Shown here: positions 4,997 through 56,615 of the stretch, in pieces
Layout: each line of letters begins with the position of its first letter
How positions within the stretch are numbered: position 1 is the first letter of the stretch
Source: Synechococcus sp. JA-2-3B'a(2-13)
GTDB taxonomy: Bacteria > Cyanobacteriota > Cyanobacteriia > Thermostichales > Thermostichaceae
DNA: 64,000 nucleotides
Direction of reading: 5' to 3'
Assembly: GCF_000013225.1 (NCBI RefSeq)
Contig: NC_007776.1
Span: 1,135,277 to 1,199,276 of the forward strand
Translations under genes and position numbers: made by a program
The notes under the pieces: model-generated
Databases searched by the model: none
What the model saw: only the letters and a program-made list of their open reading frames with translations
What the model was told of the DNA's origin: nothing

Positions 4997-7273
4997 ATGG
5001 AATACCGCTGGGAGCTGCTGCCCACTCCCCCCCAGTTCAATCCGCAACTGAGCCGGGAATATGGCAAGTATGCGGCCAAGGTGATGGCTCTGCGGGGTCT
5101 GCACACCTGGGAGCAGGCGCAGGCCTTCGTGGATCCCGAACACTATTCCCCCACACCACCAGCATCCCTGCCGGATCTGGAGCGGGCGGTGGCGCGGCTG
5201 CTGCAGGCACGGGAAAGGGAAGAGACCCTGTGCATTTGGGGGGACTTTGACTGCGATGGTGTCACCAGTACCAGTCTCCTCCTCTCGGCGTTACAACCCT
5301 TGGGCTTCCGAGTCCAGTTCTCCATACCGCTGCGCAGCACCGAGGGGCACGGGCTCAATCCTCAACGGCTACAGCAGGTGCTGGCCCAGGGCTGCCAAGT
5401 GATCCTGACGGTGGATTGCGGGGTGGGCAATGCTGCCGAAATTGCCATGGCCCAAGCCCAGGGGGTGGACGTGATCGTGACGGATCACCACATGCTGCCG
5501 GATCCCTTGCCCGCTGCCTATGCGGTGGTCAACCCCTTGCGATTGCCGGCTGAACATCCGCTGCGCTTCTTGCCGGGGGTGGGAGTGGCCTACAAGTTGG
5601 CGGAGGCGCTCTACCAAGCCCTAGGGATCCCTGGTGTCGAGCAGCACCTGGATCTGGTGGCGGTGGGAATTGTGGCCGATGTGGCGGTGTTGCAGCGGGA
5701 GTGCCGCTACTTGGTGCAGCGGGGCCTGCCGGTGCTGGCCAGTACGCAGCCCAGTACGCAGCGTCCGGGGCTGCAGGCTCTCCTGGCTCGGGTTGACAAC
5801 GGCCAATCCCAGGGGGTGCCGACAGCCCAGGATATTGCTTTTCGCATCGCCCCCAAGTTGAACGTCATTGGCCGCTTGGAAGACGCCAGCTTAGCAGTGG
5901 AGCTGCTGACCACCTCCGATCCAGAGCGGGCCCAGGCGCTGGTGCAACGGTTTGTTGCCCTTGACGAAGAGCGCCGGCAGCTCACCCAGCAAGTGATCCA
6001 AGAGGCCAGCCAACAGGTAGAGAGCTTGGATCTGACCCGGGAAGGAGCCATTGTTCTGGCGGAAGCCGGCTGGAACCCAGGGGTTCTAGGGATCGCGGCG
6101 GCGCACTTGGTGGAGCAGTATAACTGCCCAACGGTGTTGATCGCCAAAGACGAAGCGGCGGGACGGGGCTATGGGTCGGGCCGTTCCCTGCCAGGGGTGA
6201 ACCTGGTGGAGGCCATCGAGGCCGTGCGCCCCCTCTTGCGGCGGGGAGGCGGACACCCCATGGCCGCCAGGATCCAAGTGGATCTGGCTTGCCTGGCCGC
6301 TGTGCAACTGGCGTTGCAGCGGGAGCTGGCCGCGCGGGTTAGCCCGGATCAGCAGGCTCGCGCCTTGGCGGTGGAGATTATCCTCGACTGGGAGCTACTG
6401 GTCTCTCAGGATCGGGATGGGGTGGCAGAGCTGGATGAGGTGTATCGGCAATTGCAGCTTCTGCAGCCCTTTGGGCACGGCAACCCCAACCCCGTCGTTG
6501 CCTTGATGAACTTCCGTCCCAATAGCTCCAACCTGGGAGTCTCCCGCAATGGCCGCCACCTCAAGTTTGAACTCCAAGGCTCGCCGGGATCCCGTACCCT
6601 GTGGTTTTGGCAGGCCGGAGAAGAGCTGGAGCGTTGGCAAAAATGCCAAGCTTTGGACATCGCCCTCCAGTTGGAAGCGGATGACCGGGGCAAACAGCCT
6701 TGGCAGGGCAAGGTGCTGGCAGTGCGCCCTTCGGGAGAGTGGCAGGCACCCACCCTTTCTGCTCCCCCCATAGAGATCCAAGATTTTCGGCAGAAACCCC
6801 TGCCGGATTCGCTGAAAGGGGCCATCTGTTACGACGGGCAGGAGGCCGAGAACCTTGTTCCACCACCAAAAGGGGCAAAGCTGGTGCTGGCCCGCTGGCC
6901 CTGGCTACCGGCGGACTTGGCCCAACTGCTGCAACAGGTACAGCCCCGAACCCTGATCCTGGCCGCTTCTGCCTCCCCCTGGGATCAGATCCCCGCCCGA
7001 GTCAACTGGCTGATGCAACAGTGGCAGGCAGGCCGACGGGATCCCGACGAGCTGGCTGCGGCAACCGGCTTTCCCCGGCAGTGGCTGGCGGAACTGGACA
7101 GTCCGGAGCAGATCCCCACGCTGCTGATGGGCCGCCTTCAGGAATCCCAAGCCTTTCACCGCTGGCTGGACGAGGCTAGCCTCACCCAGATTGCCCAACT
7201 GTGTCAGCGGCTAATGCAATCGGATCCCCTCTCAAGAGAGACAAGAGAGAAAAGAGAAAAGAACGGAGAGTAG
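4997..7273 (+). CDS. recJ: single-strand DNA 5'-3' exonuclease RecJ
   Basis: 758 residues. Motif I is GDFDCDG (82-88), the DHH motif is TDHH (162-165), and a DHHA1-type GGGHPMAA motif sits near residue 416. An OB-fold region follows, then a cyanobacterial-type C-terminal extension. RecJ resects 5' ends in recombination and mismatch repair. sbcC follows on the same strand, so the pair forms a DNA end-processing block. The ATG is preceded only by a weak ribosome-binding site. Confidence 0.93.
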   Translation: MEYRWELLPTPPQFNPQLSREYGKYAAKVMALRGLHTWEQAQAFVDPEHYSPTPPASLPDLERAVARLLQAREREETLCIWGDFDCDGVTSTSLLLSALQPLGFRVQFSIPLRSTEGHGLNPQRLQQVLAQGCQVILTVDCGVGNAAEIAMAQAQGVDVIVTDHHMLPDPLPAAYAVVNPLRLPAEHPLRFLPGVGVAYKLAEALYQALGIPGVEQHLDLVAVGIVADVAVLQRECRYLVQRGLPVLASTQPSTQRPGLQALLARVDNGQSQGVPTAQDIAFRIAPKLNVIGRLEDASLAVELLTTSDPERAQALVQRFVALDEERRQLTQQVIQEASQQVESLDLTREGAIVLAEAGWNPGVLGIAAAHLVEQYNCPTVLIAKDEAAGRGYGSGRSLPGVNLVEAIEAVRPLLRRGGGHPMAARIQVDLACLAAVQLALQRELAARVSPDQQARALAVEIILDWELLVSQDRDGVAELDEVYRQLQLLQPFGHGNPNPVVALMNFRPNSSNLGVSRNGRHLKFELQGSPGSRTLWFWQAGEELERWQKCQALDIALQLEADDRGKQPWQGKVLAVRPSGEWQAPTLSAPPIEIQDFRQKPLPDSLKGAICYDGQEAENLVPPPKGAKLVLARWPWLPADLAQLLQQVQPRTLILAASASPWDQIPARVNWLMQQWQAGRRDPDELAAATGFPRQWLAELDSPEQIPTLLMGRLQESQAFHRWLDEASLTQIAQLCQRLMQSDPLSRETREKREKNGE

Positions 7274-7407
7274 TGAGAAGGGAGTATCCTCACTCCTCTC
7301 TCCTCACTTCTCACTCCTCATTGTTGCTCCCCACCGCTGACGCGATACTCTGGATCAAATGGCTCAACCTCATTTTTTCCAGCAACCAGAGCCCCTCAGA
7401 GTTTTCT

Positions 7408-10400
7408 GTGATCCCGGTTCGCCTAACCTTGCACAATTTTCTCTGTTACGCTCACGCCGTTTTGGATCTGCGCGGGATCCACACCGCCTGTATCTGTGGC
7501 CCCAATGGGGCAGGCAAGTCCGCCCTGCTCGACGCCCTCACCTGGGGCCTCTGGGGGCAAAGCCGGGCCAGCAACGATAGCGATCTCATCCGCAAGGGGG
7601 CCAGCGAAGCCTGGGTAGAGGTGATCTACCGCTCGCGAGGACAAACCTACCGCATCCTGCGCAGCCGTCATCTATCGGGCGAGGGATCCCTGGAGTGGCA
7701 AATTCAAACCGGAGAAACCGACGGCCAACCTCGCTGGCGTAGCTTGACCCGCCGCGGCATGCGCGCCACCCAACAGGCCATTCAAAGTCAGCTCAGCCTC
7801 GACTACGAGACCTTTATTCACTCCGCCTATCTGCGACAAGGACAAGCGGATGCCTTCACTCTGAAGCGTCCCGGCGAGCGCAAGCAGATCTTGGCCGACA
7901 TGCTCAAGTTGGGGCAGTACGATTTGCTGGCCGAGCGCTGTCGGGAACGGGCACGCAGCGCCAAGCTCAAAGCCGATCTGCTCCAAGAGCGCCTGCAGCA
8001 GCTTGACCAACAACAGGCCCACCTTGGCCAAATTCAAGCCGAGCTGGAGCGACTCCAACAACGGCAAACTCATCTGCAGCAGCTCCTAGCCCAGCAACAG
8101 CAGGAATTGCAAGCCCTAGAGCGCCTCTACGAACATCGCTGCATCCTGCAGGAGCGCCACCAACACCTTACCCAACACTTGCAAAAGCTCGGCACCAACC
8201 TACAGCACACCGAGCAACAGTGGCGTGCCCAGCGACAGCACCTGCTCCAGTTGGAAGAGCTGATCGCCCAGAGTGAAGACATCCTGGCGGGTTACGAACG
8301 CTACCAAGCCCTGATGGCCCAAGATCGCCATCTCCACCACCTCTTCGAGCAACAGCAGCATCTGCTCCAAGAACGCCAAAAGCTGCAAGCCCAGCAAGCA
8401 GAGCAGCAACAGCAGCAACTGCGCAAGATGCAACGGCTGCAACAGGAGTTGGCCACCTGCCAAGCCCAGGCCCAAGCCGATGCCCAATTGCTGGCAGAAC
8501 AGGAGCGCATCGAAATCGGCCTGCGCCACTACCAGCAAGCTCAAGAGCGTCTCCAGGCCTTGAACCAAGCCCAAGCGCAAGCCGCCATCCTTCTCCAGCA
8601 GCAACAGCATTGGCAAGAGCAAATCCGCCGCGAGCGGGAACGTCTGCAAGCCCGCCTCCAGCTTCTCAGCCAGCAACTGCAAAGCCAGGAAACTCTAGCC
8701 CAGCAGCAGCAGCACCTGGAGCAGAAAATTGCCGAAGGAGAGGCCGCCCTGGCAGAGCTGGAGCGACGGCGTCTCTACCAGCAGCGGGTGTTGGAAAAAG
8801 TCCAAGAACGGCGGCTGTTCGTGCAAAAGCTCCAGGAACGCCAGCGGGTTCTCCAGCAACAGTGGCAACAGGAGGAAGAACGCTGCCGCCTGTTGGTGAC
8901 CACCTGGGAGGAAGGTCAAGAGGTGTTTTCCGCTCAAAGTGCTCCGCGCAGCGAACGAGATCAGGTCACCCCCACTTTGGCGAGGGTGACAGCCCTTGTC
9001 GAGGAGACAGCCCTTGTCGAGGAGACAGCCGAACAAGAGAAGGGATCCCTGGCCCTATCTTCCGCCGGTCAACCTGCCGAGTCATCCCCCGCAACGCCAA
9101 CACCAGAGCCGCAGGGATCCAGCCTTATGGCTCCGCAGCGCCGTCGCCACTGGACTTGCCCCCTCTGTAGCCGTCCCCTCAGCCTGCGCCTGCGGGATGT
9201 GGTGCTGAAAAAACACCGCGAGCGTCAAGAAGAAATTGCCGGCGAACTGTTTGTTATCCGCGAACAACTGGCGGTGGCCGACCGGGAGATTGAACTCTTG
9301 CAAGCAGAATACCGCCGTCTCAGCCAAGAACTGGCCACCTGGGATGAGCGCCTGCATCTGCAAGGGCGATTGCAACAGCAGTGGGAAGCCGAGCAGGAAC
9401 GCCGCCGGCAAATCCAGCTCTGGCAAGCAGAAGCGGCAGAGTTGAGGGAAATCCTTGACCGGGAAGCTTACGCTCAAGAAGCTCGGCAACAGCTCCAGCA
9501 GATCCAGCAGGCCCTGCAACAACTGGGCTATGACGAGCGCGAGCACGCCTTACAACGAGGAGAACTGGAGCGCTGGCGCTGGGCACTGGGCCGCTCTCAG
9601 GAACTCCGCAAGGCCCAGGAGCGCCGCTCTCACCTATGGGAGCAAATCGCCTCCCTACAGGCACAACTGGAAACCCTGCAACAGGTGGGATCCAAGGACT
9701 CCGTCCCGCCAGTGGGATCGGATTCTCCCCTGGCGGAGCGGTTGGCTCAGGTGGAACAGGCGTTAAACCACCTGGGCTACGATGGATCCCTGCACCAGCA
9801 GGTGAAAGCCGAACTGGCCCAAGCGCAACTCTGGCCGGTGCGCCTGCAAGCCCTACAGGTGGCCCGCCAGGAACTGCCGGAGGTGGCAGCCCGCACCCAA
9901 GCCTTATCCCAACGCCTACAGGAAAGCCGCCAGCACTTTGCCCAGGCCACCCAAGAGTTGGAACGGCTTCAGCAACAACTGGCGGAGCATCCCGAGGTTT
10001 TGCCTGCTCAGCTGGAAGGGATCCGCCAAACCCTGCGGGAGCACCGCCGGCGGCTGGATGAGGTGCTGTCTCAGATAGGGGCCGCCCAACAACGGCTACA
10101 ACAGGCGGTTCAACAGCAAGCGGAACAGGCCGAGCTGGAACAGCAACTGCAACAGGCCCGCCGCCAGCAGCAGGTGTACCAAGAGCTGGCCAATGCCTAC
10201 GGCCGCAACGGCATCCCCGCCCTGATCGTCGAAAATGTCCTGCCCGAGCTGGAAGCCCAGGCCAACCAGATCCTGGCCCGCCTTACCCAACACCGCCTGC
10301 ACCTGCAATTGGTTACCCAGCGCTCCGGGCGACGCTATTGCTCACCGGCCAAGCTGTCCTCCGTAGCGGGACGGAGTCCCTATGACACCCTCGACATTCT

Positions 10401-10725
10401 CATTGCCGATCCCCACGGCACCCGCCCCTACGAGACTTACTCCGGTGGAGAAGCCTTCCGCATCAACTTCGCCATTCGCCTGGCCTTGTCCCGCCTGCTC
10501 ACCCAGCGCTCGGGATCCGACCTGCAAACCTTAATCATCGACGAGGGGTTTGGATCCCAGGATGCCACCGGACGCGCCCAACTGCTGGCTGCCATCAACG
10601 CCATCGCCCCGGACTTTGCCTGCATCTTGGTGATTACCCACATCCCCAGCCTGCAGGATGCTTTCCCCCACCGCATCGAGATACAGCCCTCTCCCCAGGG
10701 ATCCCGCCTCTCCATTCGCGGCTAG
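7408..10725 (+). CDS. sbcC: SbcC/Rad50-type DNA repair ATPase
   Basis: About 1105 residues from GTG at 7408. The frame is open from 7201, but homology begins at VIPVRLTLHNFLCY. Walker A is GPNGAGKS (31-38), the zinc hook is CPLC near residue 585 between two glutamine-rich coiled-coil arms, the ABC signature is YSGGEAFR near 1010 and Walker B is TLIIDEGFG near 1041. With SbcD (not in this window) it forms a nuclease that processes hairpins and blocked ends. Three 24-bp dispersed repeats lie inside the gene without breaking frame. Near 8990-9040 an 18-bp duplication gives LVEETALVEETA beside the zinc hook. Confidence 0.92.
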   Translation: MIPVRLTLHNFLCYAHAVLDLRGIHTACICGPNGAGKSALLDALTWGLWGQSRASNDSDLIRKGASEAWVEVIYRSRGQTYRILRSRHLSGEGSLEWQIQTGETDGQPRWRSLTRRGMRATQQAIQSQLSLDYETFIHSAYLRQGQADAFTLKRPGERKQILADMLKLGQYDLLAERCRERARSAKLKADLLQERLQQLDQQQAHLGQIQAELERLQQRQTHLQQLLAQQQQELQALERLYEHRCILQERHQHLTQHLQKLGTNLQHTEQQWRAQRQHLLQLEELIAQSEDILAGYERYQALMAQDRHLHHLFEQQQHLLQERQKLQAQQAEQQQQQLRKMQRLQQELATCQAQAQADAQLLAEQERIEIGLRHYQQAQERLQALNQAQAQAAILLQQQQHWQEQIRRERERLQARLQLLSQQLQSQETLAQQQQHLEQKIAEGEAALAELERRRLYQQRVLEKVQERRLFVQKLQERQRVLQQQWQQEEERCRLLVTTWEEGQEVFSAQSAPRSERDQVTPTLARVTALVEETALVEETAEQEKGSLALSSAGQPAESSPATPTPEPQGSSLMAPQRRRHWTCPLCSRPLSLRLRDVVLKKHRERQEEIAGELFVIREQLAVADREIELLQAEYRRLSQELATWDERLHLQGRLQQQWEAEQERRRQIQLWQAEAAELREILDREAYAQEARQQLQQIQQALQQLGYDEREHALQRGELERWRWALGRSQELRKAQERRSHLWEQIASLQAQLETLQQVGSKDSVPPVGSDSPLAERLAQVEQALNHLGYDGSLHQQVKAELAQAQLWPVRLQALQVARQELPEVAARTQALSQRLQESRQHFAQATQELERLQQQLAEHPEVLPAQLEGIRQTLREHRRRLDEVLSQIGAAQQRLQQAVQQQAEQAELEQQLQQARRQQQVYQELANAYGRNGIPALIVENVLPELEAQANQILARLTQHRLHLQLVTQRSGRRYCSPAKLSSVAGRSPYDTLDILIADPHGTRPYETYSGGEAFRINFAIRLALSRLLTQRSGSDLQTLIIDEGFGSQDATGRAQLLAAINAIAPDFACILVITHIPSLQDAFPHRIEIQPSPQGSRLSIRG
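8938..8961. repeat. 24-bp dispersed repeat in sbcC (unit 1)
   Basis: AGTGCTCCGCGCAGCGAACG plus AGAT, translated SAPRSERD. It is in the same frame as the copy at 1531-1554, but TAA is GAA here, so the frame stays open. Confidence 0.75.
9697..9720. repeat. 24-bp dispersed repeat in sbcC (unit 2)
   Basis: GGACTCCGTCCCGCCAGTGG plus GATC. It is in reverse orientation to the holB units and encodes KDSVPPVGSD within the second coiled-coil arm. Confidence 0.55.
10357..10380. repeat. 24-bp dispersed repeat in sbcC (unit 3)
   Basis: CCGTAGCGGGACGGAGTCCC inserts SSVAGRSP just before DTLDILIADPHGT, close to the C-terminal ATPase lobe. Confidence 0.6.
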
Positions 10726-33768: not shown

Positions 33769-34050
33769 CTGATACATTTACGCTGAACACTGCTGAACAT
33801 CACTGTTCAACTATGCAGCGATAGCATTCTGTTTGTTTCCAACCAGAATGGCGGTATCCCGCAAAGCTTTGAGTAGAATACCCAAAGCGCAGTTTCCGTG
33901 TCGTCTTACTACCAATTTTCTGCTTTGCTTTGGCTACCATGTTGGCAGACTCGAAAGTAAACAGAAAGATCAACTGGTAGTAATCCGTACTGAACATATT
34001 ATACATTATTTTCAGTATAGTTGAGCTTATTATTGACTAGAGTCATGCTC
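33769..34050. repeat. 282-bp repeated element, copy 2 (empty form)
   Basis: Same element as 748-1053 but lacking the 24-bp unit, so the two copies form a filled/empty pair. Apart from that unit they are almost base-for-base identical, implying recent duplication or gene conversion. It lies between the HD-GYP gene and the SPFH gene. Confidence 0.85.
33800..34006 (-). CDS. 68-codon ORF filling the repeated element
   Basis: Starts MYNMFSTDYYQLIFLFTFES and continues with a basic segment (KAKQKIGSKTTRKLRFGYST). It spans most of the element. It resembles no family I know. In copy 1 the same ORF is ended early by the 24-bp insertion. It may encode a mobility or regulatory peptide or be a fortuitous frame. 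Confidence 0.3.
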   Translation of the reverse strand: MYNMFSTDYYQLIFLFTFESANMVAKAKQKIGSKTTRKLRFGYSTQSFAGYRHSGWKQTECYRCIVEQ

Positions 34051-40114: not shown

Positions 40115-41254
40115 ATGACCAGCATCTGGATTGAGCAGCGCCGCCGCGAGGATGAATCTCGCAACTTTTTTTGGATGGTGGCGCTGTCGCTGCTGCTGCA
40201 CGTGCTGGTGCTGCTGGGATTGCTCCACTTGGGGCGGCTTTGGCTCACTCGCGAGCCAGAACAAGAAGCCATTGAGTTTATCCTTCTGGATCCAGAAGAT
40301 CTGCAGCCCCCAGAGGAAGCAGATCTGGTTTCAGAAGTTGATTCCCGCGATGGGGGTGAGCGGGTAGAAGCCCCTCCGTCTCAAGGCAGTCCACCTCAAT
40401 CTCAGGCCGCCCCTCCCCAGGAGGCCCCTCCGCCGCCGCCGCCAAGACCCCAACCACCGCCACCGCCTGCCCCTGTTCCACCACCACCTGCCCCGGCTGC
40501 AGTTGCCCTGGCAACCCCAACTCCAACCCCTCCACCCAAGCCCACGCCTACCCCAACCCCCGCTCCCCCTCAGCCCACCGCGACCCCGACTGCGGCACCG
40601 CCCCCTCCCACGCCTGTCCCCAGACCTACTCCGACCCAAACTCCACCGCCTGTGGCGGCTGCTCCCTCCCCAAGGCCCACTCCCCCGCCAACTGCGGAGC
40701 CCTTGCCCATACAGCCAAGCGAGCGGGTTTCGGATCCCAGCCAATTGGCTCCCGTTCCGCCCGCTCCGCAACCGGTGACAGAGGTTCTTCCCGCCCAGCG
40801 GCCCTCTGATTCTTCCCAGTTGGGACCTCCGGTCAGTGCTTCTGCTCCCAGCAATGGAGCCGGGATCCAGGGCAGTGGAGCCAGTGGATTGGCCAACCCC
40901 ACCCAATCCGCTCCCAATCCCCCCAGTGTGGCAGCGCGGGCCGATGTGGATTGGGGCCCCTGGCTGGCCGCTTTGCAGCGGAAAGTGGAGCAAAATTGGA
41001 TCCCTGGGCAGACCGGTACCTCGCGCCGCACAGTGGTGATCTTTACAGTGGGTCGAGCTGGCGATCTGCAGAGCATTCGCCTGGGGCGCACGTCCGGCAG
41101 CCAACAAACAGACGATGCGGCGCTGACGGCTATCCAGAGGGCAGCTCCCTTCCTGCCCCTGCCTGAGGCTTATGAGGGCAACTCGGTGACAATTAATTTC
41201 ACCTTTGATATCAACGTGCTGGGCCAGTTGACTGTAGGGGGATCCGCCAAGTAA
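40115..41254 (+). CDS. tonB: TonB-family energy transducer
   Basis: About 379 residues. A single N-terminal membrane helix (FFWMVALSLLLHVLVLLGLL) is followed by a long proline/threonine-rich periplasmic spacer (about 95-210). The C-terminal TonB domain has VEQNWIPGQ, VVIFTVGRAGDLQSIRLGRT and SGSQQTDDAALTAIQRAAPF. It couples the proton gradient to outer-membrane transporters with ExbBD (not in this window). The TAA stop is formed by the terminal bases of an inserted IS element (GTAAACTACCC at 41251), so the original 3' end was altered. Confidence 0.85.
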   Translation: MTSIWIEQRRREDESRNFFWMVALSLLLHVLVLLGLLHLGRLWLTREPEQEAIEFILLDPEDLQPPEEADLVSEVDSRDGGERVEAPPSQGSPPQSQAAPPQEAPPPPPPRPQPPPPPAPVPPPPAPAAVALATPTPTPPPKPTPTPTPAPPQPTATPTAAPPPPTPVPRPTPTQTPPPVAAAPSPRPTPPPTAEPLPIQPSERVSDPSQLAPVPPAPQPVTEVLPAQRPSDSSQLGPPVSASAPSNGAGIQGSGASGLANPTQSAPNPPSVAARADVDWGPWLAALQRKVEQNWIPGQTGTSRRTVVIFTVGRAGDLQSIRLGRTSGSQQTDDAALTAIQRAAPFLPLPEAYEGNSVTINFTFDINVLGQLTVGGSAK

Positions 41255-41414
41255 ACTACCCGACCCTGACTGCTTCGCGGTACAGAGTAGGCTTTTAGTA
41301 GCCCTGCAGTTAGTAAACTAACCACGGACCTCTGGGATGGTTTACGACACCCCCAATCGACCGTTACCAGTGCCTTAAACAACCGTTCCTGGTGTCCGCA
41401 GTATTATTATTATA

Positions 41415-55381: not shown

Positions 55382-56593
55382 ATGAAGTACAATGAACTTA
55401 TGAGCCAAGTCCTGACCATATCCTGTAAGCTCAAGGTAGCCCAGTCGCAAGCCGCCAAATTGGACGCGACGATGGATGCCTTTGTACAGGCATTGAACTG
55501 GGTCAACCAAAACACACCAGAAAAAGTAGTCAACGCAGTCAAACTCCAATCCCTTTGCTACTACGAGATTCGAGCCCGGTTTGGCTTGTCCAGTAACTTG
55601 GCTCAACAGGTATGCAGACGGGTAGCGGGTTCCCGCAAAGTGGCTAAGCAGAAAAAGCGTCCCGTCAAGGAGTTTAAGAGCGGCTTTGTTACCTACGACG
55701 CCCGTATCTTTTCGTTCCGTCAAAAAGACTGGACGGTGTCGCTGACCACGGTGGAAGGGAGAGAACGCTTTGAACTGGCCATTGGCAACTACCAGCGTGG
55801 GATGCTGGCTGGTTCCAACCCCAAATCTGCCACCCTGGTCAAGCGCAAAGATGGCTCCTACTACATCCAGATTTGCGTAGAGAAAAAACCACCCAAGCAA
55901 CAAGATACCGACAAGGTGATCGGGGTGGACTTGGGGAGGACGGATATTGCCCATACGTCAGAGGGGGACAACTGGAATGGACAGCAGTTGAACCGAGTCC
56001 GCGACCACTACTCCAAGCTGAGGGCGGCACTCCAACGCAAAGCCAGTAAGGGCACACGCAGTTCGCGGCGCAGATGCCGTCAACTGCTGCAACGGCTGTC
56101 TGGCAAGGAGAGGCGCTTTCAGGCGTGGGTCAATCATCGCATCTCCAAAGCTATTGTCTCTAGGGCAAAGGCGACAAACAGCGCTATTGCCCTGGAAGAC
56201 CTGACAGGGATCCGGAAAAGAGTCAATCAACAGCCGCGCAGCAAAGCCGAGCGGCGCAGGGCCAACAGTTGGGCGTTCTACCAACTACGTCAATTTCTGG
56301 AATACAAGGCGAGGGCTGCAGGGGTTTCTCTGATTCTTGTGCCGCCTGCTTACACGTCGCAGACCTGCCACCGATGTTTGCACATCCATCCTGAGCAGGG
56401 CAAGTCCTACCGCAGTGGCAAGTCGTTCAAGTGTGGGCACTGTGGATGGGAAGGAGATGCGGATTTGAATGGTGCGAATGTGATTGCGCTTTTGGGGGCT
56501 GTCGTAAACCAGCCTAGAGGTTCGGGCCTGTTTTGTTCTCTGGTAGAGCAGAGCAGGCCCAGGGCTACTGAAAGCCCGCTCCGTACCGCTTAG
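55382..56593 (+). CDS. tnpB: TnpB RNA-guided nuclease, apparently intact
   Basis: 403 residues (ATG 55382; ATG 55400 also possible). RuvC-like catalytic residues are all present: Asp in IGVDLGRTDIAH (about 182), Glu in ALEDLTGI (about 271) and Asp in GDADLNGANVI (about 359). The zinc finger CHRC...CGHC lies between the last two. TnpB proteins cleave DNA using an RNA from the element's right end. The catalytic set suggests activity, unlike the copy at 41.4 kb. Confidence 0.93.
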   Translation: MKYNELMSQVLTISCKLKVAQSQAAKLDATMDAFVQALNWVNQNTPEKVVNAVKLQSLCYYEIRARFGLSSNLAQQVCRRVAGSRKVAKQKKRPVKEFKSGFVTYDARIFSFRQKDWTVSLTTVEGRERFELAIGNYQRGMLAGSNPKSATLVKRKDGSYYIQICVEKKPPKQQDTDKVIGVDLGRTDIAHTSEGDNWNGQQLNRVRDHYSKLRAALQRKASKGTRSSRRRCRQLLQRLSGKERRFQAWVNHRISKAIVSRAKATNSAIALEDLTGIRKRVNQQPRSKAERRRANSWAFYQLRQFLEYKARAAGVSLILVPPAYTSQTCHRCLHIHPEQGKSYRSGKSFKCGHCGWEGDADLNGANVIALLGAVVNQPRGSGLFCSLVEQSRPRATESPLRTA

Positions 56594-56615
56594 CGGTCGG
56601 AGCCGGGTAGTTTAC
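56478..56615 (+). ncRNA. candidate omega-RNA scaffold at the tnpB right end
   Basis: The tnpB 3' end and downstream bases to GGGTAGTTTAC hold stem-forming segments: CGGGCCTGTTTTGTTCTCTG with GAGCAGAGCAGGCCC, and CTCCG-TACCGCTTAGCGGT-CGGAG. By analogy with other TnpB systems the guide would be the host sequence just after 56615 (starts CTTTCGACCTC). The truncated element retains the equivalent region. Confidence 0.5.

Follow-up and report, generated by a model that had tools for sequence, protein, structure and literature searches.

Three 24-nt repeat units within sbcC and the small dispersed family to which they belong in a thermophilic Synechococcus-type genome

The sbcC gene and its repeat units

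The window considered here is the whole stretch of DNA that was analysed, 64 kb in length, corresponding to bases 1135277-1199276 of a genome of 3,046,682 bp (G000) which is assembled as a single contig and whose GC skew shows no clear arms. Rfam matches within the window are limited to two tRNAs. The window includes an sbcC gene, whose product matches the Rad50 ATPase lobes and E. coli SbcC in a PDB search and which has matches in 19 of the 20 relatives searched. The gene and its features are as follows.

7201..10725, plus strand: sbcC / rad50-type SMC ATPase gene, an open frame of 1174 codons which hosts all three units
8920..9156, plus strand: hypervariable linker, as defined by alignment, which joins the coiled coil to the CPLC zinc-hook motif and has units in several members of the genus
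8937..8960, minus strand: unit 1, TCTCGTTCGCTGCGCGGAGCACTT, score 17/22, a diverged GTGC-type member, read as SAPRSER
9694..9717, minus strand: unit 2, TCCCACTGGCGGGACGGAGTCCTT, score 19/22, a GGAC-stem member, giving the eight extra codons KDSVPPVG
10358..10381, plus strand: unit 3, CCTCCGTAGCGGGACGGAGTCCCT, score 18/22, a GGAC-stem member, adding SSVAGRSP ahead of the ABC signature, between two predicted strands
10441..10458, plus strand: ABC signature SGGEAF, invariant (S1081-F1086), about 20 residues downstream of unit 3

An earlier note on this DNA had reported three repeat units inside the one gene, and an independent structural scan recovered exactly these three, against about 0.04 expected from a reversed-sequence control. 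Judged by score, unit 1 is the least secure of the three, with 41 real and 12 control hits at its level of 17; its left edge reads CTGA, the target context of the family, and it is also kept in the sister strain G004. From position 8938 its codons are AGT GCT CCG CGC AGC GAA CGA GAT, while the family consensus in the same frame would give CGC TAA CGC, so that the GAA in place of TAA, to which the note had drawn attention, was read correctly. Units 1 and 2 fold poorly on their own as single-stranded DNA.

In a structure model of SbcC of modest confidence (mean pLDDT 63.5), all three units are predicted to sit in loops, with unit 1 within an unstructured linker at 574-650, unit 2 at a gap between helices (830-842) and unit 3 in a loop between strands (1041-1062). 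The unit that had been placed near the ABC ATPase lobe is unit 3. The linker which carries unit 1 also contains an 18-nt tandem duplication, ACAGCCCTTGTCGAGGAG, at 8989-9024, which is present only here and is without counterpart in any relative.

A 24-nt repeat family and its insertion sites

The family follows the plan TCGCG-NN-AGCG-stem4-G(G/T)A-stem4'-TT, extended to YYR-N-TCGCG-NN-AGCG-S4-G(G/T)A-S4'-TT when the left context is taken from 77 close copies. The sequence stretches analysed comprised 1.66 Mb of the own genome and 1.06 Mb of G004. A scan scoring fixed bases and pairing found 372 members in the 1.66 Mb, compared with 18 in the reversed control, and AGCGGGACGGAGTCC, with at most one mismatch, has 256 copies in the 3.05 Mb genome and one in the control. 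The same exact-core count (at most one mismatch) gives 233 copies in G004 and 36-71 in four other congeners; among three further genomes of the order, two have no copies and one has 3, two of them at contig ends. On a broader scale, many copies of a 17-base core are found in Geitlerinema sp. BBD 1991-9, and Baaleninema, a Gloeomargaritales genome and other cyanobacteria have one or two each; in most cases TTCGCG again lies upstream. Single matches of this core outside cyanobacteria are at about chance level for the size of the collection. Five genomes of another cyanobacterial family carry a core with a TCTC/GAGA stem, where loci follow the plan TTCGCG-NN-AGCG-TCTC-GTA-GAGA and the TTCGCG lead is found in most of those sampled.

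Members differ in the stem, whose types include GGAC/GTCC, GTGC/GCAC, GGCC/GGCC, GCGC/GCGC, TCGC/GCGA and TTGC/GCAA. In a set of 345 hits picked by their flanking fixed bases only, with pairing disregarded, the two middle pairs of the stem are Watson-Crick in 284 and 299 cases, against 142 and 131 expected if the two sides were independent, and the excess persists when the commonest stem is left out. Canonical members fold into two adjacent hairpins as single-stranded DNA. Tandem copies have a period of exactly 24 nt, and nested copies occur, in which a TGCC-type unit sits within the GGA loop of its host unit.

Evidence of movement comes from a 506 kb alignment of G000 with G004 (91% identity), where gap lengths peak at 24 nt, with 40 gaps compared with 4 at 22 nt, 2 at 23 nt and 3 at 25 nt. 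Among these 40 gaps, 35 are family members with readable empty sites, and on the strength of these 35 clean empty/filled sites between two strains the family can be regarded as recently mobile. Counted by position, and with a slightly different threshold which gives 36 unit-type gaps instead of 35, 26 of the 36 lie inside genes predicted by a simple in-frame hexamer model rather than a standard caller. Since 24 nt correspond to eight codons, the reading frame survives insertion.

With the unit in a fixed register, empty alleles read YYRA up to the insertion point, and the base at -1 of the empty site is A in 29 of 35 cases (p=6e-15). The filled allele differs from the empty one at this position in 25 of 35 cases, compared with 2-7 of 35 at neighbouring positions. 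Where the empty site has A (29 cases), the filled allele shows an A at the right edge of the unit in 9 and at the left edge in 5, and the A is missing in 15. The base at the right edge tracks the subfamily, being A in TTGC, TCGC and TGCC types and T in most GGAC types; it therefore looks like part of the element, which would place about 25 nt where a single A had been. Ends are exact and no target duplication is present at the insertion sites. Taken together, an insertion usually seems to swap one A at YYRA for about 25 nt, with a net gain of 24 nt. Unit 2 had pointed to a HIP-like target, GGGATCCC, but as the 35 empty sites show YYRA this was not kept as a general rule. This HIP-type octamer, already described for such strains (PMC4390886), occurs 79 times in the window.

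Movement of the element and known systems

The explanation that we favour, at a probability of about 0.82, sees in the units separate copies of a mobile DNA element of very small size and of the cyanobacterial SDR kind, neutral or selfish passengers which are moved in trans at the DNA level. The copies, 24-25 nt long and able to fold into two adjacent hairpins, enter at YYR-A with a net gain of 24 nt, often exchanging the A for their own edge base and leaving no target duplication; their eight codons keep the frame, and 26 of 36 polymorphic copies lie in predicted genes. The copies in sbcC, predicted to occupy the unstructured linker before the zinc hook, a helix break and the loop before the ABC signature, would be selfish or neutral passengers and not codons recruited for SbcC function, while copies which introduce stops or harm folded parts would be removed by selection. 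As the element encodes nothing, it would be moved in trans, by a DNA-level activity which may be an HUH (Y1) enzyme or another single-strand recombinase acting on the folded strand. The number of Y1 transposases does not track that of the units, with 2 Y1 for 256 units in G000 and 19 Y1 for 71 units in the congener G001. The only intact IS605-type (Y1) element found (L161, 1400-3210) has 24-nt units adjoining or inside its end hairpins. The ends of IS200/IS605 elements were considered as a source of the units and rejected, given that this case, examined by eye, looks like insertion into the element and not kinship.

Spread of the units via an RNA copy would suit the compact covarying hairpin, the exact ends and the lack of a target duplication, and retrotransposition is reportedly the route that Elhai and colleagues proposed in 2008 for the SDR elements of Nostoc. 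It is nevertheless rather unlikely here, because no match to the RVT_1 domain was found anywhere in this complete genome by a search which detected its controls, and this absence of any recognisable reverse transcriptase speaks against spread through RNA. A bolder version of the DNA-level reading, that a folded transposable DNA of about 25 nt replaces the single A at YYRA by an undescribed exchange, with neither target duplication nor reverse transcriptase, and continually adds eight-codon loops to host proteins, is offered tentatively, the odds being somewhat against it.

Elhai and colleagues are said to have described in 2008 the elements SDR4, SDR5 and SDR6 of Nostoc punctiforme and its relatives as dispersed, recently mobile repeats of 21-27 nt, reportedly forming hairpins with compensatory changes and nested copies. 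The family examined here, 24 nt long and with its 372 copies in 1.66 Mb against 18 in the control, resembles these high-copy repeats of 21-27 nt, and it shares with them the hairpin with compensatory changes, the empty and filled sites and the nested insertion. In SDR5 the insertion point is precisely defined, between nucleotides 3 and 4 of HIP1, GCG^ATCGC (PMC4390886); its cut falls just before an A preceded by CG, as in the present family, whereas a target confined to the HIP1 octamer is not shared, YYRA being used here in varied contexts. Further differences from the SDRs are the frequent exchange of the A, the different stems and a host belonging to a thermophilic Synechococcus-type lineage. 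By the features tested, and with the HIP1-only target of SDR5 excepted, the family is of the SDR kind, a comparison based on described features.

Two other groups of small repeats offer partial parallels. Rickettsia palindromic elements (RPE) are small repeats lying in frame within protein genes, where they are apparently tolerated (PMC3733652, PMC10969869), and in-frame insertion is equally seen here, where predicted open genes contain 121 deep internal units after deduplication. However, RPE are about 150 bp long and encode a conserved peptide, whereas the present units have 24 nt and are found in all six frame and orientation classes. REP/REPIN repeats associated with RAYT (Y1) are likewise short hairpin repeats in hundreds of copies which are thought to be moved in trans, but the family here is without a terminal GTAG/CGTC tag and Y1 number does not follow the units.

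At 25 nt, the family ranks with the smallest elements for which there is evidence of movement. The strain pair supplies the target YYRA, the exact ends and the junction signature of A-exchange, which any mechanism must explain. This signature, together with a strain pair in which it can be read, is more interesting than the original question about stops. The units also represent a steady source of in-frame eight-residue insertions, even beside the ABC signature motif, and such loops are to be expected wherever these genomes are annotated or their protein structures studied.

Reading frames and related strains

The density of units is 0.14 per kb in genes and 0.51 per kb in intergenic DNA, a 3.6-fold deficit in genes which would be expected if many insertions are harmful. 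The earlier note had suggested that the stop in unit 1 was removed by selection, or that non-stop variants are used where a repeat lies in an essential frame. If such variants were specifically selected or mutated in coding frames, and the units retained on that account, the GAA of unit 1 would be accommodated, as would the observation that the sole TT-type deep members of this stop-prone frame are changed at the conserved A (TTG, TTC). Open frames guarantee a non-stop pattern anyway, and, if read in the frame of unit 1, about 42% of intergenic units would contain a stop. This frame is not depleted: it holds 20 deep units after deduplication, while 9.2 would be expected once copies with a stop are filtered out, and most of the units in it are natural stop-free variants (with TA, AC or CC as the variable dinucleotide). 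The conserved A is changed in 4 of 20 units there and in 26 of 226 elsewhere, which is no significant enrichment (Fisher p=0.28), and G004 has the same GAA, with no TAA ancestor seen. Specific selection for non-stop variants is thus improbable; active removal of a stop is not supported beyond a trivial survivor filter, and the survival of readable copies, a passive filter, is sufficient to explain the GAA in unit 1.

An apparent excess of TA-type members in the frame of unit 1 (9/38) was set aside, since copies of one transposase-sized gene accounted for part of it and deduplication brought it down to 4/20 deep units. A transposase-sized gene family of about 1240 nt has seven copies with the same in-frame unit, TCGCGTAAGCGGGACGTAGTCCTT, in the own genome near 103015, 629688, 638836, 1083388, 1267960, 1359121 and 1522384, and looks like a putative insertion sequence which spreads this unit as part of its own gene.

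Under an even spread, three units in one gene have p=0.014 for sbcC. Genes with at least three units number 19 in half the genome, against 1.5 expected, which indicates that tolerant genes collect units and that sbcC is not special.

Alignment of SbcC from related strains, which the earlier note had recommended, reveals units 2 and 3 to be polymorphic, and the residues which they add were not found in repeat-free relatives. Unit 2 is a clean gain of 24 nt shared only by G000 and G004, being absent from G001, G002, G003, G005 and the outgroups L007-L009. Unit 3 is a clean gain of 24 nt at CTG(A) in this genome only, where relatives read CTG ATC or similar. At exactly this site G004 has a different insertion of 30 nt with further extra codons, so that the loop of unit 3 has been struck more than once. 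Unit 1 is common to G004, where the codons read GGC GAA CGA, and no clean empty site is readable for it because the linker is hypervariable; other unit-like stretches can be recognised by eye in the same linker in G001, G002 and G003. Independent insertion, as proposed in the earlier note, is thus supported, by clean empty sites in the case of units 2 and 3.

A comparison of two strains alone gives no direction, and the units might be ancestral and precisely excised in relatives. This is very improbable, as four or five congeners and three outgroups lack units 2 and 3, and a fourth 24-nt unit in sbcC, present in G004 only, is missing in all others, with A at that site in the outgroups. With polarity given by outgroups, which was established for a few events only, CTGA in relatives becomes CTGT plus the unit at the site of unit 3, and CTCGA in three relatives becomes TTCGT plus the unit at the fourth. 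Chance resemblance, or slippage between short repeats in a coiled-coil gene rich in Gln and Arg, suggested by its repeated coiled-coil codons (repeat family D2) and by the tandem duplication found only here, is hardly credible given three units where the control predicts 0.04, the same family genome-wide and the exact 24-nt empty sites which refute it for units 2 and 3, although it is conceivable for unit 1 alone.

Other repeats are present in the window. A repeat of about 310 nt, at 748-1057 and 33769-34050 of the window, carries a 24-nt unit inside and looks like a MITE, with about seven copies at 99-100% identity and some fifteen more at about 91% in 1.66 Mb. A further family of dispersed repeats, about 50-150 nt long, is found at 41251-41306 and 56560-56615 of the window, and has about 20 relatives in the same 1.66 Mb.
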